From the IMG/VR virus record IMGVR_UViG_3300022467_001034, positions 1 through 21,713 of that record: 21,713 nucleotides of DNA. The stretch is one strand, 5' to 3'. Shown piece after piece: positions 3,209-20,571 of the stretch; the stretch's first letter is position 1; every line of letters starts with the position of its first letter. A model generated the notes under the pieces. It saw only the letters and a program-made list of their open reading frames with translations. It was not told the origin of the DNA and ran no database searches. Source of the stretch: a virus. Both the position numbers and the translations under genes were made by a program.

Positions 3209-3379
3209 ATGGCCGACACAGACGTTCTCAAGCAATACCGCGTGGGCGATCCTCCTACACTGCCGGGCAGCGACAAGCTGTACCTGTCTGAGGAGTTGAA
3301 GCGCATCTCAGCCGCGATCAACCTGCTTGTGCAGGTCGCAAAGAAGCTCGAAGCGCGGATGACTGCCAATGGGATTTGA
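3209..3379 (+). CDS. Small 56-aa phage protein, function unknown
   Basis: The ATG at 3209 opens a 56-aa ORF: YRVGDPPTLPGSDKLYL, then SEELKRISAAINLLVQVAKKLEARM. The first half is Pro/Gly-rich. The second is a clear amphipathic helix of about 28 residues that could form a coiled coil. Small proteins with a LYLSEELKRI-like start to such a helix are common beside phage tail and ejection genes, but I know of no assigned role. The ribosome binding site is weak (TTGGA about 6 nt upstream), and the gene follows the structured region 2903-3208. Its last 11 bases overlap the start of the next gene (ATG 3369), supporting translational coupling. Confidence 0.65.
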   Translation: MADTDVLKQYRVGDPPTLPGSDKLYLSEELKRISAAINLLVQVAKKLEARMTANGI

Positions 3380-3809
3380 GTTTCACGCCGAGCACGAGCT
3401 TTCCTCCTCCGATGAGTATCGCTCAGTGCTTCACGAGCTTCGTGACGAGCACGGCAACCAGATGCTCTGTATCCACATGGACGTGAATGCTGCCCACTTC
3501 AAGCCATCCACGCTGAAGAGGATGCAACACGAGTTTGCGTGTCTCCGTCAATGTACGGACGCGCCGATATTCGCCATCGAAGACATTCCCGACGACGCCA
3601 AATGGGCTCGATACGTCGGTCACATGGGCTTCGAGTTCTCCAGTCGTGTTGAATGCACGGACGGTCACTCGCGACGATGCTTCGTCAGCAACAAAAAGAA
3701 CAAGAATGACGACTTCCAGCACTTCCTCGACGCAGAGCAGCGCTCCGTGGTCAGTACAGCAGCCGTACCTGACGCAAGCGTTCGGTCAGGCCTCGACCAA
3801 CCTCAATAA
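3369..3809 (+). CDS. GNAT-like acetyltransferase-fold protein
   Basis: The gene encodes 146 aa. The middle follows a pattern I associate with small GNAT-fold proteins of podoviruses: HMDVNAAHFKPSTLKRM, then CTDAPIFAIEDIPDDAKWAR, YVGHMGFEF and RRCFVSNKKN. The 'wa+yv..mGF' and 'r+.Fvs' elements resemble the last strands of a GNAT domain. A textbook acetyl-CoA loop (Q/RxxGxG/A) is not evident, so catalysis is doubtful. Its start overlaps the 56-aa gene by 11 nt. Its last ~34 codons overlap the next gene out of frame, and this tail (after FVSNKKN) looks low-complexity and may be a by-product of the overlap. The role in the virion is unknown. Confidence 0.6.
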   Translation: MGFEFHAEHELSSSDEYRSVLHELRDEHGNQMLCIHMDVNAAHFKPSTLKRMQHEFACLRQCTDAPIFAIEDIPDDAKWARYVGHMGFEFSSRVECTDGHSRRCFVSNKKNKNDDFQHFLDAEQRSVVSTAAVPDASVRSGLDQPQ

Positions 3810-4854
3810 CGCCAACGCGAACACCTACACGGGTCCGCAGATTGCGCAGATGACCCCTGATCAGCTTGCGAACTTCCGCAACATGATCGGGTACGGCTCC
3901 AACCTCAACGGCGCTAACACGTCTGGCACGGTTGGAGCGACGACTGCCAATCAGGGCTCTAGCGCCCTTGGTGCAGCCCTTCAGGGCCTCACGAACTATA
4001 CGCCGCAGGGTACGCCTCAAGACAACATCGACTACGCCAGCAAGGTCGCCAGTGACGGAAACGTCAGCGCCTTGACGCAGGCGGCGATGCGTGACGCTAC
4101 CAATCAGGTCAACGAGCAGACGCTTCCTGCCTTGGCTCGTGCGAACGCCATGAGTGGCAACACCATGAGCAACCGCAACGCCATCTCTCAGGGATTGGTG
4201 GAGCGCGGCTTGGCCGATACGACCGCCGACACGAGCGCGAACATTCGCGGTCAGTTGTTCAACGCTGGTCTGTCGCAGGCAGAGCAAGCACGAGAGGCAA
4301 ACAACAACAGCACACTCTCTGCGCTTACTAGCGCGGCAGGTGCTGGCACAGGTGCAGTCGGAACTGGTGTTGGGGCTATTGGCTCTGGCATCGATCAGGC
4401 TGGAAATCTGTTCAACCTCGCTGGTCAAGGCGGCGCTGGACTTCAGCAGAACAACCAGAACGCCATCGACAACTCGAAGGGCGTTGATGAGTACGCCAAC
4501 AGTCAGGCCGCTCAGAACCTTCAGAACTTCTTCAACATCATCGGTGGTCAGAATTGGGGCGGAACGTCTTCGGGTACGCAGACGAGCACACCGAGCACTT
4601 GGAACACCATCGGCTCCGCCCTTGGTATTGGCTCAGCGCTGTTCAAGCTCTCCGACCGCCGCCTGAAGAAGGACATTCGCTGCATCGGACAGGCCGACAA
4701 CGGCTTGCCGATCTACACGTTCCGCTACCTCAACGACCCCAAGGGCGAACTCCACATGGGCTTCATGGCTCAGGACGTGGAGAAGGTTAAGCCAGAAGCA
4801 GTGTCGAAGGTTGGTGGTATCATGGCAGTCAACTACGAACTGGCAGTCAACTAA
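3706..4854 (+). CDS. Virion protein with C-terminal S74-type chaperone motif
   Basis: This is a 382-aa protein. The N-terminus (PWSVQQPYLTQAFGQASTNL) matches a pattern common in short-tailed phage ejection or tail-associated proteins. The centre is rich in Asn, Gln, Ala and Gly. The C-terminus from residue 316 has SDRRLKKDI, then LPIYTFRYLND, HMGFMAQDVEKVKPEAV and VNYELA, the signature of the S74 intramolecular chaperone (PF13884), here in a short form of about 67 residues. In the family the Ser of SDRRLK is linked to self-cleavage. I chose ATG 3706 (weak AAGAACAAG upstream) because conserved-looking sequence starts right after it, although the frame is open further upstream. It overlaps the previous gene by 104 nt and the next by 1 nt (TAATG). 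Confidence 0.75.
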   Translation: MTTSSTSSTQSSAPWSVQQPYLTQAFGQASTNLNNANANTYTGPQIAQMTPDQLANFRNMIGYGSNLNGANTSGTVGATTANQGSSALGAALQGLTNYTPQGTPQDNIDYASKVASDGNVSALTQAAMRDATNQVNEQTLPALARANAMSGNTMSNRNAISQGLVERGLADTTADTSANIRGQLFNAGLSQAEQAREANNNSTLSALTSAAGAGTGAVGTGVGAIGSGIDQAGNLFNLAGQGGAGLQQNNQNAIDNSKGVDEYANSQAAQNLQNFFNIIGGQNWGGTSSGTQTSTPSTWNTIGSALGIGSALFKLSDRRLKKDIRCIGQADNGLPIYTFRYLNDPKGELHMGFMAQDVEKVKPEAVSKVGGIMAVNYELAVN

Positions 4855-6197
4855 TGGCTCAGTGGGACCCGCGTTGGGGCGACGCCATCGCCTCCATCGA
4901 GAGTAGCGGCGGTAACTACGGCCTGCTTGGTCCCACGACCAAAAGCGGAGACCGCGCCTATGGCAAGTATCAGGTCATGGGCAACAACATCGCGGACTGG
5001 ACCAAGAATGCTCTTGGCCGTGCGCTGTCGCCGCAAGAGTTCTTGAACGACCCTGACGCGCAAGAAGCTGTCTTCAAGCAACAGTTTGGAAACTCCGTTG
5101 ATAAGTACGGCAACCCGCAAGATGCGGCGTCGGTCTGGTTTAGCGGTCGTCCTATGGCTCAGGCAGGGAACGCAAGTGACATTCTCGGAACGACTGTCCC
5201 CGGCTACGTCAGCAAGTTCAACAACTACCTCGATCATCCACTCCAGCAGTCCGCTGGTGCCAGAGCAATCAACAACGCAGCCCCTCAAGGAGGAGCAATG
5301 AATACTGCCCCGCCTGACGATGGCTTCATGGGTGCCCTGCTCAACCGCATCAACGGTAGTAACAGCAACGCCGCTCCAGGAGCGCAGCCATACGACTTGG
5401 GCGACGCCATGGGTAACGCTGGTGCAGCCATGATGGCGCTCGACAACGCCAAGGGCGCTGCTGTGCTCGCGTCGATGACGCAAGCGAACCGCAAGGCCGC
5501 CAACCCGGCGCAGAAGATGACCGAGTGGTCCTACGAGCCGAGCACTGGCGTCTTCTATCGCACCGACCCGCGCACTGGACAACTTCAGACCATGCAGGGC
5601 AACGCGAAGGAGAAGGAAGCCAAGCCGGTTCCTGAGCAGGCGATGAAGTACGTAGGCGACAATATGTCGAACTACGACTACCTCACCCAAAGTGCGCAGA
5701 ACGCCGCAGACATTCTTGACGATATCAAGAAGGGCAACCTCGACCTTGGCCTGTTCAAGAACTGGATCAACTCCGGTAAGAACGTGGCGGGGATGAGCGA
5801 CGACCAGTCGCGCGCCCTTGCTCGCTTTCAGCAGTTCCAGCAGGGCCTCGTCAACGACAATCTGCGGCTCAACAAGGGCGTGCAGACCGAAGGCGATGCT
5901 TACCGCGCCCTCAAGGAGTTCGCCTCCAGTGGCGCGAACTACGATAACGCAGCGGCGACTGAAGCGCTCCAGCGCATCATCAAGAAGAACAAGGAAGCGG
6001 TGCTCAACAGGGGCTCCCGTATTCTTGATAGTCATGAAGCCAACTATCCCGGCAACGACGAAGCCTTCCAGCCCTATACAGATCAAGTGAACGGTTGGAA
6101 GAACGCTTTCAGCGACATTGATAGCCGCTTGGCTGCTCAGCCCTCTGCGGCTGCACCTGCAACTGGCGGCTTCAGGATCATCAAGGGACCCCACTAA
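4854..6197 (+). CDS. Virion-associated lytic transglycosylase, ejection protein
   Basis: The 447-aa protein begins with an SLT-type lysozyme-like domain (residues ~5-130). IESSGGNYG places the catalytic Glu at E16, and AYGKYQVMG is the second family motif, followed by ALSPQEFLNDPDAQEAVF and VWFSGRP. Such domains cut peptidoglycan locally during DNA entry. Residues ~149-447 are a largely helical, Ala/Asn/Lys-rich domain without a family I can name. The start codon overlaps the previous stop (TAATG) with no Shine-Dalgarno, so translation is probably coupled. A strong internal in-frame start at 5298 divides the two halves. It sits between two other ejection-type genes, as the internal virion proteins of short-tailed phages usually do. 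Confidence 0.85.
   Translation: MAQWDPRWGDAIASIESSGGNYGLLGPTTKSGDRAYGKYQVMGNNIADWTKNALGRALSPQEFLNDPDAQEAVFKQQFGNSVDKYGNPQDAASVWFSGRPMAQAGNASDILGTTVPGYVSKFNNYLDHPLQQSAGARAINNAAPQGGAMNTAPPDDGFMGALLNRINGSNSNAAPGAQPYDLGDAMGNAGAAMMALDNAKGAAVLASMTQANRKAANPAQKMTEWSYEPSTGVFYRTDPRTGQLQTMQGNAKEKEAKPVPEQAMKYVGDNMSNYDYLTQSAQNAADILDDIKKGNLDLGLFKNWINSGKNVAGMSDDQSRALARFQQFQQGLVNDNLRLNKGVQTEGDAYRALKEFASSGANYDNAAATEALQRIIKKNKEAVLNRGSRILDSHEANYPGNDEAFQPYTDQVNGWKNAFSDIDSRLAAQPSAAAPATGGFRIIKGPH
5287..5295 (+). promoter_or_regulatory. Strong internal Shine-Dalgarno inside the transglycosylase gene
   Basis: AAGGAGGAG at 5287-5295 is the best match to the anti-Shine-Dalgarno sequence I found in the window, stronger than that of any annotated gene start. 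The core AGGAGG (5288-5293) lies 4 nt before an ATG at 5298 that is in frame with the surrounding gene (codon 149). Confidence 0.6.
5298..6197 (+). CDS. Possible separate C-terminal product of the transglycosylase gene
   Basis: Initiation at ATG 5298 would give a 299-aa protein starting MNTAPPDDGFMGALLNRI and sharing the stop at 6197. It lacks the whole lysozyme-like domain. The start falls at the boundary between the enzymatic domain and the helical half, and the new N-terminus reads like a natural gene start. In-frame nested starts of this kind are known in phages (lambda C/Nu3, T7 4A/4B). The ribosome binding site and frame are seen; production of the shorter protein is inferred. Confidence 0.45.
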   Translation: MNTAPPDDGFMGALLNRINGSNSNAAPGAQPYDLGDAMGNAGAAMMALDNAKGAAVLASMTQANRKAANPAQKMTEWSYEPSTGVFYRTDPRTGQLQTMQGNAKEKEAKPVPEQAMKYVGDNMSNYDYLTQSAQNAADILDDIKKGNLDLGLFKNWINSGKNVAGMSDDQSRALARFQQFQQGLVNDNLRLNKGVQTEGDAYRALKEFASSGANYDNAAATEALQRIIKKNKEAVLNRGSRILDSHEANYPGNDEAFQPYTDQVNGWKNAFSDIDSRLAAQPSAAAPATGGFRIIKGPH

Positions 6198-6206
6198 GGA
6201 GCGATA

Positions 6207-8816
6207 ATGCCGCAGTACACTGTTGGCCTGCCTGACGGCAAGCAAATGGTCGTAGAGGCCGACAGCGAAGACGCGGCACTCTCCGGTGCTCAGAACTGGT
6301 ACTCTCAGAACAGTTCACAGAAGCCCGACACGTCGATGATGGGAGCACTCTCTCAGGGTGCTTCCGACCTCGTGACGGGCGTTGGTAAGACCGTCAAGGA
6401 TTACGTCAGTCCCGACACTGGCAAGGCCATTGCAGACAAGGGCGCTACCCTCGCCAGCAAGAATTATCAGCCTGCGTCCGAAGAGTTCATACATCCTTCG
6501 GACGGTGCGTCGAACCACACAATGGGGCTCGACTGGTCTGCGCTGCCTCGTGCAGCCGTGGAACAGGCTCCCGGCCTCGCCCTCGACATTGGCGGCCAGA
6601 TGCTCACGAAGCGTCTTGGTCCAGCCGCTCAGTACATCGCCAACGCCGTCACCTATGGTGCGCGGACGCTTGGCAACGAGGCTGAGAAGAGGGCAGCAGC
6701 AAGAACAGGCGACGCCAACGCGGAGCCAACGGCTGAAGACAAGCTCACGGGCTTGCAGTCTACGCTCGCTCAGACCGCCCTCAACAAGATTGGCCTGTCC
6801 GGCATCACCAACCCTGCGAAGGTGATTGGTACAGGCGCTCAAGGCGTCCTGCGCGCTGGTGGCAACGTGCTGAAGTCGGCTGCGAAGGAAGGCCTGACCA
6901 ACGCTGGTCAAGACCTAATCTCGCAGGGCTTCATCAAGAAAGGCACTGACCAGCCGATTGACGCGCAAGAAGCGCTTGGCGCTGGTGTCATGGGCGCTGG
7001 CGGTGGCGCTCTATTCTCCGCACCACATGCGGCGAAAGAGGCGCTAACCTCAGTACGAATGAACGATCAGGCTGGCGACGCTCACACAGCGATGGCAGCT
7101 AACCGCATCACGGAACACGCTGGCGGCACGGACACGCTCGCTGACCCGAAGGTGGCTTACAAGGCCACGCAGGGCGCGATTGAAGACGTGAGGCGAGAGA
7201 TTGGTGACGCTGCGAAGCGCACCAGCAACCCCTCTACCGAGGCCTCCAACGCCATCGCCGCTGCAAAGAGCGGTGAAGCTCTCACTGATAAGCAGACGGC
7301 TGCGGTTGACGCTGAAGGCAATGACCAACTGTCGTCCCTCGTGCGTCAGGCTACCGCGCTCAGCAAGCTCACTGACATGGGCAACTTCGATAGCGGTGAA
7401 GGCCGCTTCGCAGGCGGCGCAAGCGAGTTCGCGCGCAATAACGCTCGTGCAGCGGTCTACGGACTGACTGGAGCGGCTGCGCTTCCTCACATGGTGGCTC
7501 AGGGGGGCGTTGGTCTAGACAGCCTCTCTGCCTCTGTACCTCACCTTGCGGAAGCAGCGGCGGCCGGTGTTGCTGGCTACAAGGGCCTGAAGCTCGCTGA
7601 CAAGGCGCTTGGCTTCGCCTCGCCTGCCAAGACGTTCGCAGAACGCTTCGGAGACACCAGCGGCAACGTCCGTGTACCACTCCAGCTTAACCAGAGCCCG
7701 ACAGGGCCGAAGGTGACGCCTCAGAACAGCCTCACCCCGGCCCAGCCGTGGGGACTTATCGCGCCGAAGCCGACACCGTTCAAGCCTGACGTGCTTGAGC
7801 CCGGTATCGCTAAGATCGTTGAGAAGCTTCAGAACCAGAAGCAGCAGCAGACGGCGCGCGCGGCCATGCCGCTGCTTAGGCAGTTGGCATCGCAGAGCAA
7901 GCCGCCTGCTCCTCCCGAGCCCGACACGACGCTGCAAGACGCCATCACGGCGGGCAAGCAGGTTGTGAAGGATCGGCAGTGGGCTGACAACCTCCGACAG
8001 CGCTTCGAGGCCGAACAGGCTGCGAACGCTCCGCAGGCTTCTGCTGCACCGACGATGGATCAGACGATGGCCGCTACTGCGAAGCTCGCTAAGGGCCTCC
8101 AGAAGATGGCTGACCTTCGCCAGAAGGGTCTTGGAAGCAATCAGGCGGAAGCTGAAGCAGCCGTGTCTCCGATGATCCAAGAGCAGGGTGGGCTCGATGC
8201 CGTCATGAACCCCATGATGGGCAAGCGAGCAAGCGAACTCATCGGTGCCGCCAATGCGCTGAAGAAGCTCCGTGCTCAGCCTGAAGAGGAAGCGCCAACA
8301 CCGCAACCCGCACCAGCCGCTCCTGCGCCTGCGATGGGTCCGAAGGGTGTTGACCCCACTGGAGCGACGCCGCTCACGGTGGCTGACATTCTCTCTCGCA
8401 TCTCTGGCGAGGCTCCGAAGGCCGAAGCTCCCAACGCTGCTGCTGTGTTCACTCTCCCTGAGAGCCCGCACAGCTTCAAGACGCCGCAGGAAGCCGCTCA
8501 GGCCATCTACAACGAGGCCGTGGCAGGCGGGAAGATCATCCGCCACGCAGAGGGCTTCAAAGCCGGTACGACCCGTCGATTGGCGGGCGAGGAAGCAATC
8601 TACAACAACATCTCCAAGGCGCTCTCCAGCGTCGCGGAGCGTGGTGCCTTCCACAAGTACCTAGCAGCCCTGTGGGGCTCCGATAGTCCTGAAGTCGTAA
8701 CCCAAGTCCGTGAGCACATGCTTGCTGAGTTTCCGCAACACGCCGGAACGATCAACAAGCATCTGTCGGACCAAGCGATCAAGGACCTATGGACGAAACC
8801 CGCAAAGAAGAAGTGA
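6207..8816 (+). CDS. Large internal virion / DNA ejection protein
   Basis: At 869 aa this is the largest protein here, rich in Ala, Gln and Lys. The first ~35 residues (YTVGLPDGKQMVVEADSEDA, then ALSGAQNWY) form a small domain seen at the start of several phage internal proteins. Gly/Ala-rich, moderately hydrophobic stretches at about 252-275, 416-436 and 444-468 could insert into membranes. Residues ~540-720 are Pro/Gln-rich with helical segments, and the end is basic (WTKPAKKK). Length and position suggest the role of T7 gp16 or P22 gp16, a protein ejected ahead of DNA. I see no second lysozyme motif. AAGGAG at 6196-6201 overlaps the previous stop and gives a firm start at ATG 6207. Its end overlaps the terminase gene by 28 nt. 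Confidence 0.7.
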   Translation: MPQYTVGLPDGKQMVVEADSEDAALSGAQNWYSQNSSQKPDTSMMGALSQGASDLVTGVGKTVKDYVSPDTGKAIADKGATLASKNYQPASEEFIHPSDGASNHTMGLDWSALPRAAVEQAPGLALDIGGQMLTKRLGPAAQYIANAVTYGARTLGNEAEKRAAARTGDANAEPTAEDKLTGLQSTLAQTALNKIGLSGITNPAKVIGTGAQGVLRAGGNVLKSAAKEGLTNAGQDLISQGFIKKGTDQPIDAQEALGAGVMGAGGGALFSAPHAAKEALTSVRMNDQAGDAHTAMAANRITEHAGGTDTLADPKVAYKATQGAIEDVRREIGDAAKRTSNPSTEASNAIAAAKSGEALTDKQTAAVDAEGNDQLSSLVRQATALSKLTDMGNFDSGEGRFAGGASEFARNNARAAVYGLTGAAALPHMVAQGGVGLDSLSASVPHLAEAAAAGVAGYKGLKLADKALGFASPAKTFAERFGDTSGNVRVPLQLNQSPTGPKVTPQNSLTPAQPWGLIAPKPTPFKPDVLEPGIAKIVEKLQNQKQQQTARAAMPLLRQLASQSKPPAPPEPDTTLQDAITAGKQVVKDRQWADNLRQRFEAEQAANAPQASAAPTMDQTMAATAKLAKGLQKMADLRQKGLGSNQAEAEAAVSPMIQEQGGLDAVMNPMMGKRASELIGAANALKKLRAQPEEEAPTPQPAPAAPAPAMGPKGVDPTGATPLTVADILSRISGEAPKAEAPNAAAVFTLPESPHSFKTPQEAAQAIYNEAVAGGKIIRHAEGFKAGTTRRLAGEEAIYNNISKALSSVAERGAFHKYLAALWGSDSPEVVTQVREHMLAEFPQHAGTINKHLSDQAIKDLWTKPAKKK

Positions 8817-9412: not shown

Positions 9413-10964
9413 GCGCTTCTACGAAGACTTCGACTTCTACAGTCGTCACGCGCTGAAGGTCCGCGCGAAGAACAACGAAATCCGCAACTTCACGCTCAAC
9501 GCGGTGCAGAGGCGTTTCAATGCAGAGGTCGAAGACCAACGCAAGCGCACTGGCCGCGTCCGCAAGATCATCCTCAAGGGACGACAACAGGGCTTCTCGA
9601 CCTACGTGGGCGGGCGGAAATACTTCCGCCTGTCTCAGCGCAAGGCGAAGAAGGGCCTCGTTGTCGCCCACAAGGCGGACAGCACTCGTGCGCTGTTCGA
9701 TATGTACCGGCGATACCACCAGTCCTGTCCGCCGATGCTCCAGCCCGAGACCGCCTACTCCTCACGTAAGGAGTTGGTGTTCTCGAAGCTTGATACCGCC
9801 ATCGTGGTTGCTACCGCAGGCGGCGATGGCATCGGACGCGGCGAGATGTTCTCCGACATGCATCTCTCTGAGATTGCCTTCTGGCCCGCGAATGCCGCCG
9901 CAGAGAACTTCAACTCTCTCATGCAGTGTCTCCCGAACATGGACGACACTGAGTGCTACATCGAGAGCACCGCGAACGGGTTCAACCTGTTCAAGACGCT
10001 GTGGGATGGTGCCGTAGCTGGCGAGAACGAATTTGAGCCGTTCTTCGCAGCTTGGTTTGAAACCCCTGAGTACCGTATGCCGGTCGTAGAGGACTTTGAG
10101 CGCACGTTGGAAGAAGAAGACCTCGTGTCTCTCTACGGCCTCGACAACGAACAGCTTATGTGGCGTCGCCGCAAGATTGCAGCCAACGGTCGCGACCTGT
10201 TCATGCAGGAGTATCCTTGCTGCCCCGACGAAGCGTTCATCGCTTCCGGCCGTCCCGTGTTCAACCCTGAGCAGATTGTCGAGCTTATTGGCTCTGCCCC
10301 GGCCATCCTCAAGTCGATGGACGTTGAAGAGACTGGCGCTCATCTGCGCATCGCAGAGACGCCCGTGGGACGTATGAAGGTTTACCGCGAGCATGAAGCT
10401 GGCGAGCAGTATGCCATCGGCGCTGACGTGGGCTTGGGCATCAAAGACGGCGACTGGTCAGTTGCGCATGTCCTCGACAGCGAGAAGCGCCAAGTAGCGG
10501 TCTTCCGTGCTCAAGTGCATCCCGACTACTACGCGGACATTCTCGCAGCCATCGGACGCTACTACAACGACGCACTGATTGCTCCAGAGCGCAACAACCA
10601 CGGCCTCGTGACGTGTCTGCGGCTCTACAAGGACCTTCAGTACCCCAACGTCTACCTCGACCTCAAAGAGGGGCAAATCGAGGATCAGGACACCCTCAAC
10701 ATCGGACACTACACCGACGTGAAGACGCGACCGCTCATCATCGACCGCCTACGCGGCTCGATGCGCGAGGGCGATATCACTGTCAACGACGTGACAACGT
10801 TGAAGGAGATGCAAACCTTCGTGGTGAATGAAGCGGGCAAGATGACTGCCGAAGCTAACTGTCACGACGACACGGTTATGGCTCTCGCCATCGCCAACCA
10901 CATTCACCCCGGACGTGCAACGCCCGTCATTGTCCCTGACGACTACTATGTGAACGCAATTTAA
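9378..10964 (+). CDS. terL: Large terminase subunit (packaging ATPase and nuclease)
   Basis: The 528-aa protein drives DNA into the prohead and cuts it. The ATPase half has a deviant Walker A, KGRQQGFST (residues 67-75), with Arg and Gln where many P-loops have other residues, as is normal for terminases. Walker B is MHLSEIAFW with the catalytic Glu at 155, and the coupling motif is ESTANG (186-191). The nuclease half has the expected acidic residues: D340 in YAIGADVGLG, E394 in APERNNHG and D487 in CHDDTVMALA. GAAGGA at 9367-9372 is 5 nt before ATG 9378. The stop overlaps the portal start (TAATG). All key motifs are present, so it should be active. Confidence 0.95.
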   Translation: MATEQEKIALRRRFYEDFDFYSRHALKVRAKNNEIRNFTLNAVQRRFNAEVEDQRKRTGRVRKIILKGRQQGFSTYVGGRKYFRLSQRKAKKGLVVAHKADSTRALFDMYRRYHQSCPPMLQPETAYSSRKELVFSKLDTAIVVATAGGDGIGRGEMFSDMHLSEIAFWPANAAAENFNSLMQCLPNMDDTECYIESTANGFNLFKTLWDGAVAGENEFEPFFAAWFETPEYRMPVVEDFERTLEEEDLVSLYGLDNEQLMWRRRKIAANGRDLFMQEYPCCPDEAFIASGRPVFNPEQIVELIGSAPAILKSMDVEETGAHLRIAETPVGRMKVYREHEAGEQYAIGADVGLGIKDGDWSVAHVLDSEKRQVAVFRAQVHPDYYADILAAIGRYYNDALIAPERNNHGLVTCLRLYKDLQYPNVYLDLKEGQIEDQDTLNIGHYTDVKTRPLIIDRLRGSMREGDITVNDVTTLKEMQTFVVNEAGKMTAEANCHDDTVMALAIANHIHPGRATPVIVPDDYYVNAI

Positions 10965-13012
10965 TGGTTGATACAAAGAAGAAGTACGGGAAGACGGAAG
11001 ACGAGATTATGAGCTTGGTTGACCCTGCGGTCAGCCGCTCCACGTCATGGTGTGATACCCAACTGTCGTCCGAACGCACACGCCTCCAGCGCTATTACGA
11101 CGGCCAACTCCCGAAGCGCCATCACGAAGGTAGCTCCAGCTACGTGTCGTCTGACGTGCAGGATGGCGTCGATAGTATGCACGCGCAGTTGCTCGAAGTG
11201 TTTGGGGGCTCGCATGATATCGTGCGCTTCAAGCCGTTGAACCTCAACGACGTGGACGCTGCGAGGCTTGAAACCTCGTACATCGCCTATTTGATCATGG
11301 AGGAAAATCACGGCTTCGACCGCTTCTCCGACGTGATCATGGACGGTCTCAAAGGCCGTAACGGCGTCATCCAATATTATTGGGAGAACTGCGTCGAGAG
11401 AGACGAGCACACCTTCGAGGGTATGTCCCTTGATGACGTGCAGGCTCTAGCGGCTCAAGAAGACGTTGAAATCGACGCGCAGTTAGACAGTAGCGATCAA
11501 GTCAACGATTATCTATCCAACGCCCAAGGTCCTACCTACAGCGGTACTTGGACGCGCATCATCGATAAGTCCGGCTTGCGTGTCGAGAACGTTCCTCCAG
11601 AGGAATACTTCTCTGACGGCACCAAGAAGCGCCGCCAAGACGGCGTGAGAGGGCGTAAGACCCTCAAGACCCGCTCTGAGTTGGTCAAGGACGGCTATCC
11701 GAAGGATAAGGTTGAGAAGATCGGGACCAGCAACGAACTGGACTTCGATCAGGAGCGACAGGAGCGTGACAAAGGCACCAGCGACGGTATGCAGCGTGAC
11801 GCTGCGCAGCCCGAACTGGAGCACGTCATGCTCTACGAGACGTTCATCCAGCTTGCCCTCAAGGGCGACGGAACGTCCGCTCTGTACCGCATAGTCCATG
11901 CGGGTGGTCAGTTGTTCGAAATGGACGAAGTGGAGTGTGACAACTTCCTCGACTTCGTACCGCTTCGTCGGCCGCACTCTCAGTTCGGCAACAACTTTGC
12001 CAAGCGCATCGTCCCGACGCAGAACGCACGTACCGTGCTCACGAGGGCCATCCTCGACCACACGGTTACGACGACCAACCCGCGCTGGACGGTTCTCAAC
12101 AACTCGTTGACGAACCCCAAGGAGCTTCTGGACAACCGCCTTCGTGGCATTGTCAACGTGAAGAACCGCGACGCGATTGGTGTGCTGCCTTACCCGACGA
12201 TGAACCAGTTCGCCATGCCGGTTCTGGAGATGCTTAAGAGCAACAAGGAAGAGACCACTGGCCTCTCCTCGCTGTCTCAGGGCCTCAACAAGGACGCCAT
12301 CTCCTCGCAGAACTCGCAGGGCATGGTGAACGACCTAGTGAACCTATCGCAGGTTCGTCAGAAGATCATCGCCCGCAACTTCGCGATGTTCGTATTTGAC
12401 CTGTTCCTCGCGTGCCGCAAGCTCGTTATCGAGAACCAGACCCGCAAGAAGGTTTGGGAGTTCGACAACAACTTCGTCAACATCGACCCGAAGCTCTGGA
12501 CGCCAACGCGTATGGTCCAGGTATCGCTCAATGTCGGTTACGGCGAGCAGGAGAAGGAAGCGGCGAAGTACGCCCAATTGTGGGGTATGCTCTCGACCGA
12601 CCCGAAGGCGTCGTTGTTCTGTCCGCCAGACAAGCAGTACAAGCTGCTCACGGACGGCATGAAGAAGAACGGCTTCACCAACTTCAACGACTACATCATC
12701 ACGCCTGATCAGGTCAAACCGCCCGGCCCCGATCCAATGGAGATGCAAAAGCTCCAGATTGAGGACAAGAAGGCACAGGCGATGCTCCTCACGGCACAGG
12801 CCGCAGCCGACAAGGCGCAAGGCCACCATGAGATTGAGATGATGAAGGTGCAGATATCTCAGCTTCTCGCGCATGTGAAGGAGATGACTGCGCAGCGTGA
12901 CGCCGACCGCAAGGACATGGATATCGCCAACAAGGTGAACGTGTCGCAGCGTGAGACGCATCTGCTTGAAGTCGCTCCCACGGCCGCTGAGAAGGCCATC
13001 GTCAGCCCGTAA
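10964..13012 (+). CDS. Portal protein (P22-type)
   Basis: The 682-aa protein would form the ring through which DNA enters and leaves the capsid. The N-terminal part (RLQRYYDGQLPKRHHEGSSS, YVSSDVQDGVDSMHAQLLEVF) and the following FDRFSDVIMDGLKGRNGVI stretch match the large P22-like portals of short-tailed phages. Length is close to the 725 aa of P22 gp1. The C-terminal ~90 residues (MEMQKLQIEDKKAQAMLL onward) are a long charged coiled coil, as in the portal barrel. The start overlaps the terminase stop by one base and has no ribosome binding site, implying coupled translation. The acidic segment near residues 155-175 (EDVEIDAQLDSSD) is a likely surface loop. Confidence 0.9.
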   Translation: MVDTKKKYGKTEDEIMSLVDPAVSRSTSWCDTQLSSERTRLQRYYDGQLPKRHHEGSSSYVSSDVQDGVDSMHAQLLEVFGGSHDIVRFKPLNLNDVDAARLETSYIAYLIMEENHGFDRFSDVIMDGLKGRNGVIQYYWENCVERDEHTFEGMSLDDVQALAAQEDVEIDAQLDSSDQVNDYLSNAQGPTYSGTWTRIIDKSGLRVENVPPEEYFSDGTKKRRQDGVRGRKTLKTRSELVKDGYPKDKVEKIGTSNELDFDQERQERDKGTSDGMQRDAAQPELEHVMLYETFIQLALKGDGTSALYRIVHAGGQLFEMDEVECDNFLDFVPLRRPHSQFGNNFAKRIVPTQNARTVLTRAILDHTVTTTNPRWTVLNNSLTNPKELLDNRLRGIVNVKNRDAIGVLPYPTMNQFAMPVLEMLKSNKEETTGLSSLSQGLNKDAISSQNSQGMVNDLVNLSQVRQKIIARNFAMFVFDLFLACRKLVIENQTRKKVWEFDNNFVNIDPKLWTPTRMVQVSLNVGYGEQEKEAAKYAQLWGMLSTDPKASLFCPPDKQYKLLTDGMKKNGFTNFNDYIITPDQVKPPGPDPMEMQKLQIEDKKAQAMLLTAQAAADKAQGHHEIEMMKVQISQLLAHVKEMTAQRDADRKDMDIANKVNVSQRETHLLEVAPTAAEKAIVSP

Positions 13013-16933: not shown

Positions 16934-18379
16934 ATGGGCAGCGGCTTCTTCGACGGTCCTCAGATTGGCGAGGTCGTGGACCAACAGGGCTTCTATGACG
17001 GCCCTGCGTACACTCAGATGGACCCTACGGCCATCGAGAACTTCAAGGACGAAGCTGCTGCTTCCGCTGCTGCCTCTGAGGCATCTCATCAGGCCGCCGA
17101 GGCCGAACGCATCGCCGCTCAGGCTGCTGAAGCTGATGCGACCGATCAGGCCAACACTGCGACCGCTGCTGCTGGCGTAGCGGCAGGTCAGGCGACAATC
17201 GCCACCAATCAGGCAGGCATCGCCACCACGCAAGCAGGCATCTCTACCACTCAGGCTGGTAATGCTGCTACCAGCGCCTCTGACGCCCTCACGAGCGCTA
17301 ACAACTCTGCTACAAGCGCTGCTGCGGCTGCGACCAGCGAGACTAACGCGGCGGCCTCTGAAGCCTCATCAGCGGCTCATGACACGTCTGCAGGTACTCA
17401 CGAAGTCAACGCGGCTGGTAGCGCCTCTGCGGCTCACACGAGTGAGGTCAACGCAGCAGCTAGTGCTGCCAGCGCAGCGAGTGCGGTCAGCACGGCTATC
17501 ACCAACCTAGTTGGCAGTGCTCCGTCAACTCTTGACACGCTGAAAGAGATTGCTGACGCGTTAGGGGACGACCCGAACTTCGCGACCACGATGACGACCG
17601 CGTTGGGTCTCAAGGCTCCTCTAGCCTCTCCAGCGCTCACTGGCACCCCTACGGCTCCTACGGCTCCTGTTGCGGACAACAGCACCAAGATTGCCACGAC
17701 GGCCTTCGTGCTCGCCAACAGCATCTCCGATGCTCCCGCCGACGGCAACGAGTACGCCCGCAAGAACAACGCGTGGGCTCTTGCTGCTGGTGCTGTGAGT
17801 ATTCAGGACACGGCGCCCACTGGGTTAACCCCGGGCTCCCTGTGGTGGAATAGCCTCAACGGTCAACTCTACGTTCTCTTCGGCACTGCGTGGGTTGCTG
17901 CGAGCACCATCGCTTCGCTTCCCGGCACTGTGCAGTACGACGTGGTGCAGGCCCTCAGCGCTGCTCAGCAGACGCAGGCTCGGCAGAACATCGGCGCGGC
18001 TCCTGCGGTATCCACACTCACCAATTCGATCAGTGCAGACGTGGCGCTAAACAACACCGCGAATTATTTCGACGGTCCTAGCGTCAACGCGGGTTCAACC
18101 GGCTCTTGGTACGTTTCCGGTACCGTGACGGTCACCGACACGGCGATTGCGCGCGTATTCGCCAAGCTGTGGGACGGGACCACGACCGTCGCGAGTAGTC
18201 AGGAGCGCATTGAGGCCGGTACCACCATTCGGTCCATAGCCTTGTCTGGCATTATCACAAACCCGGCCGGAAATATTCGGATCAGTTGCAGTGACGTGAC
18301 GAACACGACAGGTAAAATCCTTGCCAATAACACTGGCGTTGGGTTCGATAGTACCATCACCGCAGTGAGGATCGCCTAA
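16934..18379 (+). CDS. Tail fibre with Ala-rich coiled coil and C-terminal binding domain
   Basis: The 481-aa protein has four parts. Residues 1-40 contain two related motifs, GFFDGPQ and GFYDGPA, likely the virion-attachment end. Residues ~41-185 form a long Ala/Ser/Thr/Asn heptad coiled coil. Residues ~190-300 hold common fibre segments (STLDTLKEIADALGDDPNF, then PALTGTPTAPTAP and IATTAFV, then PGSLWWNS). After ARQNIGAAP, the last 114 residues (368-481) are a beta domain ending TITAVRIA that recurs in the next gene. Receptor binding is inferred. AGAGGA (16918-16923) is 10 nt upstream of the ATG. The stop overlaps the next start (TAATG). Confidence 0.85.
   Translation: MGSGFFDGPQIGEVVDQQGFYDGPAYTQMDPTAIENFKDEAAASAAASEASHQAAEAERIAAQAAEADATDQANTATAAAGVAAGQATIATNQAGIATTQAGISTTQAGNAATSASDALTSANNSATSAAAAATSETNAAASEASSAAHDTSAGTHEVNAAGSASAAHTSEVNAAASAASAASAVSTAITNLVGSAPSTLDTLKEIADALGDDPNFATTMTTALGLKAPLASPALTGTPTAPTAPVADNSTKIATTAFVLANSISDAPADGNEYARKNNAWALAAGAVSIQDTAPTGLTPGSLWWNSLNGQLYVLFGTAWVAASTIASLPGTVQYDVVQALSAAQQTQARQNIGAAPAVSTLTNSISADVALNNTANYFDGPSVNAGSTGSWYVSGTVTVTDTAIARVFAKLWDGTTTVASSQERIEAGTTIRSIALSGIITNPAGNIRISCSDVTNTTGKILANNTGVGFDSTITAVRIA
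17192..17275 (+). repeat. 21-nt coding repeat in the fibre coiled coil
   Basis: Residues 87-114 are four successive 7-residue units: ATIATNQ, AGIATTQ, AGISTTQ and AGNAATS. At the DNA level this is a diverged 21-nt tandem repeat. Such heptad units set fibre length and can grow or shrink by slippage or recombination. Confidence 0.7.
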
Positions 18380-18381
18380 TG
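18365..18381 (+). repeat. Fibre gene junction repeat, copy 1
   Basis: GTGAGGATCGCCTAATG encodes the last codons of the 481-aa fibre, its stop and the next start codon, and contains the next gene's ribosome binding site (GAGGA, 18367-18371). An identical 17-mer occurs at 19174-19190, and the match extends upstream with four mismatches over 35 nt. Confidence 0.85.
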
Positions 18382-19188
18382 CCCCTCTCATTCCCCTCAT
18401 CCCCCTCGGTCGGCCAACTCTACCCATCGCCCCCCATCACCAACACTCCCGTATGGAAATGGGACGGCTCCGAATGGGTCCTCTCTAGCGGCACGACTGC
18501 TTCCGTACTTACTCAATTCGAGTACACGGGCCTCACGACCTGCACAGGCACGGACAACAACGGTGCGACCTTGGCTTACCAGCCGGGCCTCATCGAAGTC
18601 TTCGTCAACGGCCTGAAGCTCAACAAGGGTGACTACACGGCGACCAATGGCACCTCGGTTGTCATTGGCTCGACTGTTGGTGCCACAGACCTCGTTACGA
18701 TCCTCGCGTTCGCTGCGATCAGCGGTTCGAACACGTTGGCTCCTTCGAACGACTTGAGTGACGTTGCGAGCGCAAGTGCGGCTCGGGCGAACATTGGTGC
18801 TGCACTTGCCCCAACGGTGTTCACGAACGCTCTCACCGCCGACGTAGCCCTCAACAACCTCTCGACGTTCTTCGACGGACCTTCGGTTGCTCAAGGTACT
18901 AGCGGTACGTTCTTCGTCATTGGCGCGGTTCTGATCTATGACACCAACGGTGCAGCCGCGTCTTTCGACCTGAAGCTGTGGGATGGCACTACCGTCATCG
19001 ACAGCGCGCGCGCGGAGGTGCCTTCAGCGCAATTTAGAAACAAGATCACGTTGCAGGGGGTCATCACGAACCCGGCAGGTAATCTACGAGTGTCGGTGAA
19101 TGACCGAAGCTTCACCACAGGCAAAATCGCGTTCAACCAGTCTGGCTTGGGTAAAGACAGCACCATCACAGCCGTGAGGATCGCCTAA
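18379..19188 (+). CDS. Second tail fibre, sharing its C-terminal domain with the first
   Basis: The 269-aa protein opens with a fibre-type segment (PSSPSVGQLYPSPPI, WKWDGSEWVL) followed by VFVNGLKLNKGDYTATNG, a pattern frequent in phage fibres. LSDVASASAARANIGAA links to the C-terminal 116 residues (154-269), which align along their length with the last 114 residues of the 481-aa fibre, sharing ADVALNN, FFDGPSV (YFDGPSV there), KLWDGTT, ITNPAGN and DSTITAVRIA. It lacks the long coiled coil and the attachment end of its neighbour, so it may bind as a subunit of the same fibre. Its ribosome binding site lies inside the end of the first fibre gene. Confidence 0.8.
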   Translation: MPLSFPSSPSVGQLYPSPPITNTPVWKWDGSEWVLSSGTTASVLTQFEYTGLTTCTGTDNNGATLAYQPGLIEVFVNGLKLNKGDYTATNGTSVVIGSTVGATDLVTILAFAAISGSNTLAPSNDLSDVASASAARANIGAALAPTVFTNALTADVALNNLSTFFDGPSVAQGTSGTFFVIGAVLIYDTNGAAASFDLKLWDGTTVIDSARAEVPSAQFRNKITLQGVITNPAGNLRVSVNDRSFTTGKIAFNQSGLGKDSTITAVRIA

Positions 19189-19917: not shown

Positions 19918-20571
19918 ATGCCCCAACTCAAGACCTCTCACAAGGTCGGGGGTGCCGCTGCTGCTGCCGTCATCGCTGCTACTGTAGCCTTCCTCCCTAA
20001 TTGGGAAGGAACGGACTACGTTGCCAAGCGAGACGCCATCGGCACTGGTCATCCGATCACATGGTGTCATGGACAGACGCCAGCCGACGAACCCAACATG
20101 AAGGTACACGTCGGACAGCGCTTCACCAAAGAACAGTGTGACGCTGAGCTTGCCAAGAGCCTGCCCAAGTACCTCGACAAGATTGGTCCAGCCGTCCACG
20201 TCGCTATCCCGGTCAAGTCGATGGCTGCTCTCTTGGACGCGTCCTATAACGCTGGTGCAGGAGCCGTCATCAAGTCACCTATGGTGCGCCAGTTCAACGC
20301 TGGCAACTTCAAAGCGGCCTGCGACGCCTTCAAGGGCTGGTACGTCCGCTCAGACGACAAGGTGCGCAAGGGCCTCATCGCCCGCCGCGCTGGAGAGACC
20401 GTAGGCGACACTCGCAAGAGCGAGCGTGCTCTGTGCATCGAGGGCCTGAAGGACACCACGACGCCTCTGTACCTCTATGGAGCGCCTGTGGAGCCTCAAG
20501 AGCCTCCGAAGCCTATCGAAGCCCCTAAGACCGCTACTGCCTCTTGGCAGGAATGGTTCTGGAGTAAGTAA
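19918..20571 (+). CDS. SAR endolysin, lysozyme-type (GH24)
   Basis: The 217-aa protein degrades peptidoglycan at lysis. Residues 10-29 are a weakly hydrophobic Gly/Ala-rich segment, typical of a signal-anchor-release helix. WEG, RDAIGTG and ITWCHGQT place the likely catalytic triad at E30, D39 and T48. SYNAGAGAVIKSP, RQFNAG and GLIARRAGE are further GH24 motifs (PF00959 pattern). Cysteines at 50, 74, 135 and 173 might hold an inactive or active disulphide form, as in P1 or P21 enzymes. The C-terminal ~35 residues are a Pro-rich extension. The start follows the previous stop directly (TAAATG). Confidence 0.92.
   Translation: MPQLKTSHKVGGAAAAAVIAATVAFLPNWEGTDYVAKRDAIGTGHPITWCHGQTPADEPNMKVHVGQRFTKEQCDAELAKSLPKYLDKIGPAVHVAIPVKSMAALLDASYNAGAGAVIKSPMVRQFNAGNFKAACDAFKGWYVRSDDKVRKGLIARRAGETVGDTRKSERALCIEGLKDTTTPLYLYGAPVEPQEPPKPIEAPKTATASWQEWFWSK

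Follow-up and report, generated by a model that had tools for sequence, protein, structure and literature searches.

Two-polypeptide endolysins made by means of an in-frame internal start include Lys170, CTP1L, CD27L and LysP7951 (Pinto et al. 2022, PMC9430671; CTP1L, PMC4777826), and ratios of 1:3, 2:2 and 1:5 have been reported for such enzymes (PMC9430671, PMC4777826). The 2022 endolysin survey covered Gram-positive and mycobacterial hosts only and left out proteins with phage-tail domains as likely virion-associated lysins (PMC9430671). Ejection proteins with a peptidoglycan-cutting domain are also described, namely T7 gp16 and K1E/K1-5 gp35, and enzyme domains are known to swap between ejection proteins (PMC8954989). 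The most numerous ejection protein of P22 is gp20, with about 30 copies versus 12 and 12 for the others (PMC8402733). In the searchable literature we found no ejection protein described as having an internal start, which is not proof of absence.

We analysed the gene at 4854-6197 of a 21.7-kb virus record of short-tailed-phage type (the whole stretch is called the window here). The gene resembles the two-polypeptide endolysins in that the enzyme comes first, a strong start lies in the linker, the predicted enzyme-free C-terminal product shares the stop codon, and the position is conserved among relatives. However, those endolysins serve lysis in Gram-positive phages and bind the cell wall through their C-termini, whereas this gene encodes a putative virion ejection protein; its module family has members annotated as injection proteins, and it sits among ejection genes. 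Like T7 gp16 and K1E/K1-5 gp35, it joins a swappable enzyme domain to an ejection protein. It differs from them in its internal start and from P22 gp20 in its enzyme domain, neither of which is mentioned for those proteins in the accessible part of PMC8954989.

The window encodes a SU10-like portal and major capsid protein (PF23899, PF17236). The gene lies between gp7-like and gp16-like genes and beside a gp10-like gene, an arrangement like that of P22 gp20 and T7 gp15-like tunnel proteins, and we take this, from the P22 map, to be the position of P22 gene 20 (gp20). Synteny of the region is shared with four other loci (L003, L084, L313 and L315). Unlike P22 gp20 and T7 gp15, the helical module showed no homology to the gp20/gp15 family in PHROGs, in PDB sequences or in a Foldseek search of the PDB with a moderate-confidence model (mean pLDDT 77 when modelled alone), and the PDB fold and sequence searches gave nothing significant for it. 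The start of the gp7-like gene was set at 3706 by comparison with L084, and its first part (3706-3809) seems to share about 100 bases with the preceding open reading frame (3369-3809) in another frame. The features are listed in Table 1.

Table 1. Positions of features in the window, and codons of linkers in the second phage group
Feature	Position	Strand	Basis or remark
gp10-position gene	window		PHROG virion structural protein
gp7-like ejection gene, upstream, with C-terminal Peptidase_S74 domain	3706..4854	+	PHROG 'DNA ejection protein' 6.7e-33; PF13884
TAATG stop/start overlap, SD-less start of full-length product, coupled to upstream gene	4852..4856	+	
Full-length gene, 447 aa: N-terminal lysozyme/transglycosylase-like domain and helical ejection-protein module	4854..6197	+	
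Lysozyme/transglycosylase-like enzyme domain, residues 1-130	4854..5243	+	related tape-measure/minor tail proteins
Disordered linker, residues 131-157, contains internal start	5244..5324	+	pLDDT < 50
Internal Shine-Dalgarno AAGGAGG, 4 nt ahead of ATG	5287..5293	+	
Internal in-frame start codon ATG, codon 149	5298..5300	+	
Predicted short product (MNTAPP...): helical ejection module of 299 aa, enzyme-free	5298..6197	+	
Large ejection protein, 869 aa, P22 gene 16 position	6207..8816	+	same gene order in L005, L084, L002
Candidate endolysin-like gene	19918-20571		own sequence and position
Second-group linker KENSQ/MM			AAG GAG AAT AGC CAA
Second-group linker QGEAP/MM			CAA GGA GAA GCA CCA
Second-group linker TGGQP/MM			ACA GGA GGC CAG CCA
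Second-group linker TETKP/MM			ACG GAG ACT AAA CCG

A strong predicted ribosome binding site in the linker

Residues 8-144 of the protein matched a PHROG family of unknown function, and the N-terminal part matched tape-measure and minor tail proteins, some of them labelled 'glycosylase'. The enzyme domain had no Pfam match, and its best PDB fold match, the catalytic domain of the Ralstonia sp. A-471 chitinase, was weak (prob 0.98, TM 0.45, E 0.18). In the AlphaFold2 model of the 447-aa protein, the chain was structured before residue 130 and after about residue 157, while residues 131-157 were disordered (pLDDT < 50), which places codon 149 in the linker between the lysozyme-like domain and the helical half.

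The site reads AAGGAGG-AGCA-ATG at 5287-5300, in frame with the 447-codon gene, and AAGGAGGAGNNATG occurs once in the whole record. Its strength was measured as duplex energy against an anti-SD tail that may not be the host's own; on this measure it reached -11.4 at 5298, whereas the gene's own start (4854) scored -2.1 and the strongest of the gene starts (6207) scored -8.3, so that its SD exceeds that of every gene start in the window. It ranked first among the 120 in-frame internal ATGs of the window's genes (runner-up -7.1), and 2 of the 552 ATGs on both strands equal or exceed its energy. The initial annotation had called it the strongest such site, lying exactly between the two halves of the protein, and both statements were borne out, as were the sequence and position given for it, its reading frame (codon 149) and the 299-aa product (MNTAPP...) predicted from it. 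The start lies outside conserved domains and clearly above the background of the gene. The 4-nt spacing from GGAGG to ATG is slightly short, and the accessibility of the local RNA was about equal to that of other starts and not informative. Because synonymous-codon shuffling of the peptide QGGA attained the energy of the site in about 10% of trials, the window's site alone is suggestive, and the weight is carried by conservation.

The start of the full-length product was described in the same annotation as lacking an SD, which is right (-2.1), though this start is a TAATG overlap with the upstream gene. A stop/start overlap is also present at this point in L084 (TAATG) and L005 (TAGTG). The portal gene at 10964 is likewise SD-less and has a TAATG overlap with the terminase stop (10962-10966), so the start at 4854 need not be weak. 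Several relatives in a second phage group have a strong SD at the full-length start. The suggestion that the full enzyme is made at a low level was therefore unsupported on the grounds offered for it.

Persistence of the site through enzyme exchange

Three close relatives of the gene were found in IMG/VR, L002/L004 (52% identity), L005 (49%) and L084 (61% over the module), and further scans for close relatives added none. A scan with the large neighbouring gene added only one contig, which belongs to the same virus and leaves the internal site uncovered. L176, a 5-kb contig recovered from a different metagenome, matches the window at 100% identity across the large ejection protein and stops short of the site. 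A prophage search of 397 genomes, from the order of the Ancylobacter locus, gave no relative of the full gene; the matches were to the enzyme domain only, in longer open frames, save one already known module-only match (Ancylobacter).

In all three close relatives the module opens with an in-frame ATG that lies shortly ahead of T-x-P-x-P-D-D-G-F and has GGAG upstream; its relative position is the same as in the window. The junction sites are CAGGAGGCGTAATG in L004 (-10.3), AAAGGAGCCGATGTAATG in L005 (-7.9) and CAGGAGACAGTGCCACGATG in L084 (-7.4), and in each gene the junction ATG is the top-scoring internal ATG. The linker residues diverge among the window and these relatives (QGGA, SGGV, KGADV, TGDSAT). 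L084 (3485-4876) carries an unrelated N-terminal Phage_lysozyme2 domain (PF18013, 1e-23) on the 61%-identical module; therefore, the enzyme has been exchanged at the linker while the start at the joint remains. Loss of the site in close relatives, which the initial annotation had named as counter-evidence, was not observed: the site is kept in all three and at most enzyme/module junctions of the second, separate phage group.

That group has a different C-terminal module, which starts M(M)Q..PRGLL... The enzymes ahead of this module, some of the same kind and some of other kinds, are lysozyme-like, SLT, Hydrolase_2 or glucosaminidase domains. The group shows the same junction design, with ATG(ATG) preceded by GGAG mostly 8-9 nt upstream. 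Another linker, KGGG(T/A)V, follows a lysozyme-like domain and also an SLT domain, with AAAGGAGGNGG..GTG in both settings. Proteins related to those of the second group are annotated as 'P22-like injection translocase' in Pseudomonas phage AH02 and as 'putative injection protein' in Rhizobium phage RHph_N3_2. The design is also present in an isolated phage, Octadecabacter Antarctic DB virus 2, whose gp19 (L313:4533-6104, 'cell wall hydrolase', Hydrolase_2) has the site at the enzyme/module joint as GGAG-8nt-ATG, AGAGGAGCGCCACAG-ATG (AGAGGAGCGCCACAGATG), with an energy of -8.3. The SD at the junction is weak in L192-L194 and L203/L204, and no clear junction site was found in more distant enzyme-bearing relatives, namely M15 types (L103, L117, L126), L112, BUCT555 and lysozyme types (L051, L077).

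As a separate observation, three loci with the linker KGGGxV-TPDQIAQG (L038, L039, L153) have AAAGGAGG..GTG after a lysozyme-like domain in some phages and after SLT in another, as if this linker were a recombination joint.

The GGAG is thus kept in close relatives, through an enzyme swap, in a second group and in two codon frames, which favours a real internal start. We consider it probable that the site is a genuine internal start and that the 447-aa and 299-aa forms are both made; they would be packaged together, with only part of the copies bearing the enzyme.

Origin of the junction and alternative readings

The profile search with the helical module yielded about 90 loci. A recognised peptidoglycan hydrolase was present at about 15 of the 76 module loci scanned, and most had none; the hydrolases were SLT, Phage_lysozyme2, M15, Hydrolase_2 and glucosaminidase. 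Counted over all its occurrences, the module is preceded by about six types of enzyme domain. Members without a recognised enzyme start at their own start codon, and the module also occurs in a named phage (MW202573) as a hypothetical protein. The flanks retrieved for the module loci, which reached up to 4 kb, contained no separate open reading frame with a lysozyme domain of the window's type. The nearest case is RHph_N3_2, in which a separately annotated SleB-like hydrolase gene lies two genes downstream of the injection protein related to the second-group module. The idea that the gene is a fusion of two formerly separate genes consequently held in part: a mostly enzyme-free module with some six kinds of enzyme points to modular accretion, but an adjacent split pair at this point, which the initial annotation had proposed to look for in relatives, was not seen in these flanks. 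The history is better described as enzyme modules swapped ahead of a module that is mostly without a recognisable enzyme.

Since the module mostly stands alone with its own start, and the enzymes in front of it vary, the junction was plausibly once a gene start. The same facts would fit a relic, in which an ejection gene that once stood alone had an enzyme joined in frame to its front, while its former ribosome site and ATG survived with little or no use. We regard this as unlikely, because the linker residues of the window, L004, L005 and L084 have diverged yet the SD and ATG have stayed, and because the second group keeps GGAG in two codon frames; after this much divergence one would expect a relic to have eroded.

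To compare the junctions with other ATGs of the same genes, we used 15 non-redundant junctions (<80% upstream identity). The results showed that GGAG precedes 13 of the 15 junction ATGs, compared with 4 of 194 other in-frame and 7 of 142 out-of-frame ATGs; two of the 15 junctions, L192 and L203, have only a weak SD. The motif is spelled in two codon frames and across several peptides. The median duplex energy was -7.7 at the junctions versus -2.8 at the 194 other in-frame ATGs (Mann-Whitney P 1e-8). A synonymous-codon test gave a combined P of 7e-4, which became 1.2e-3 when the window was left out and was 0.019 for the window together with its three close relatives. Single-site P was 0.03-0.26 for most junctions and 0.84 and 1.0 for the two weak ones. 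The combined values overstate significance because the junction sequences are related, and all P values are guides only, since a site had also already been seen in the first members of the second group when that group was looked up. These comparisons bear on the reading that Gly-rich linkers yield GGAGG through codon choice, with an accidental methionine after it. The shuffling result for QGGA lends this some credit, but the excess at junction ATGs, the combined synonymous test and the presence of GGAG in the Gly-free linkers KENSQ and TETKP make it improbable. Least probable of all is a pausing site, at which an SD-like stretch would slow the elongating ribosome and give the enzyme domain of a single product time to fold before synthesis reaches the helical module. 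The position exactly between two folded parts would suit it, but pausing would not require a start codon, and the junctions that have the signal carry an in-frame ATG (or GTG) at initiation distance from it, while out-of-frame and other internal ATGs rarely have the signal.

Two predicted forms of an ejection protein

Under the preferred reading of a working internal start, ribosomes coupled through TAATG at 4854 would produce the full 447-aa protein, consisting of a peptidoglycan-cutting domain, linker and helical module, and initiation at 5298 would produce the 299-aa enzyme-free module in the same frame. The comparison with relatives (three of three close relatives and most second-group junctions) supports the two products proposed in the initial annotation. 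The long and short forms would share the contacts of the module and be co-packaged with the neighbouring ejection proteins, and an enzyme would then sit on some copies in the ejected conduit and not on others. We infer that ribosomes use the site, that the short form is packaged and that the purpose is to set enzyme dosage; an enzyme on every copy of an abundant ejection protein may be unnecessary or harmful, so that an enzyme-free form would be favoured.

A broader reading, to which we give an even chance, is that in several P22-like podophages peptidoglycan-cutting domains are exchanged just upstream of an embedded, conserved ribosome site, and that the virion is a mosaic of armed and unarmed subunits in a ratio set by two starts in one gene. 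A new enzyme would then arrive as an N-terminal extension, while the enzyme-free module retains its own start. If so, the two-polypeptide strategy would extend from lysis enzymes to the DNA-injection machine, it would become understandable that enzyme domains can swap between ejection proteins and leave assembly intact, and a mixed stoichiometry of ejection proteins would be predicted. The gp19 of Octadecabacter Antarctic DB virus 2 offers the site in an isolated phage, open to direct test; in the accessible part of the virion mass-spectrometry data for Sulfitobacter phage PhiGT1, nothing bearing on this protein was found.

Elsewhere in the window, the adjoining genes 16934-18379 and 18379-19188 have similar C-terminal domains with the identical end DSTITAVRIA, after which both continue into the nearly identical sequence gaggatcgcctaATG. 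The first of them matches tail-fibre families, and the pair likely reflects a domain duplication.
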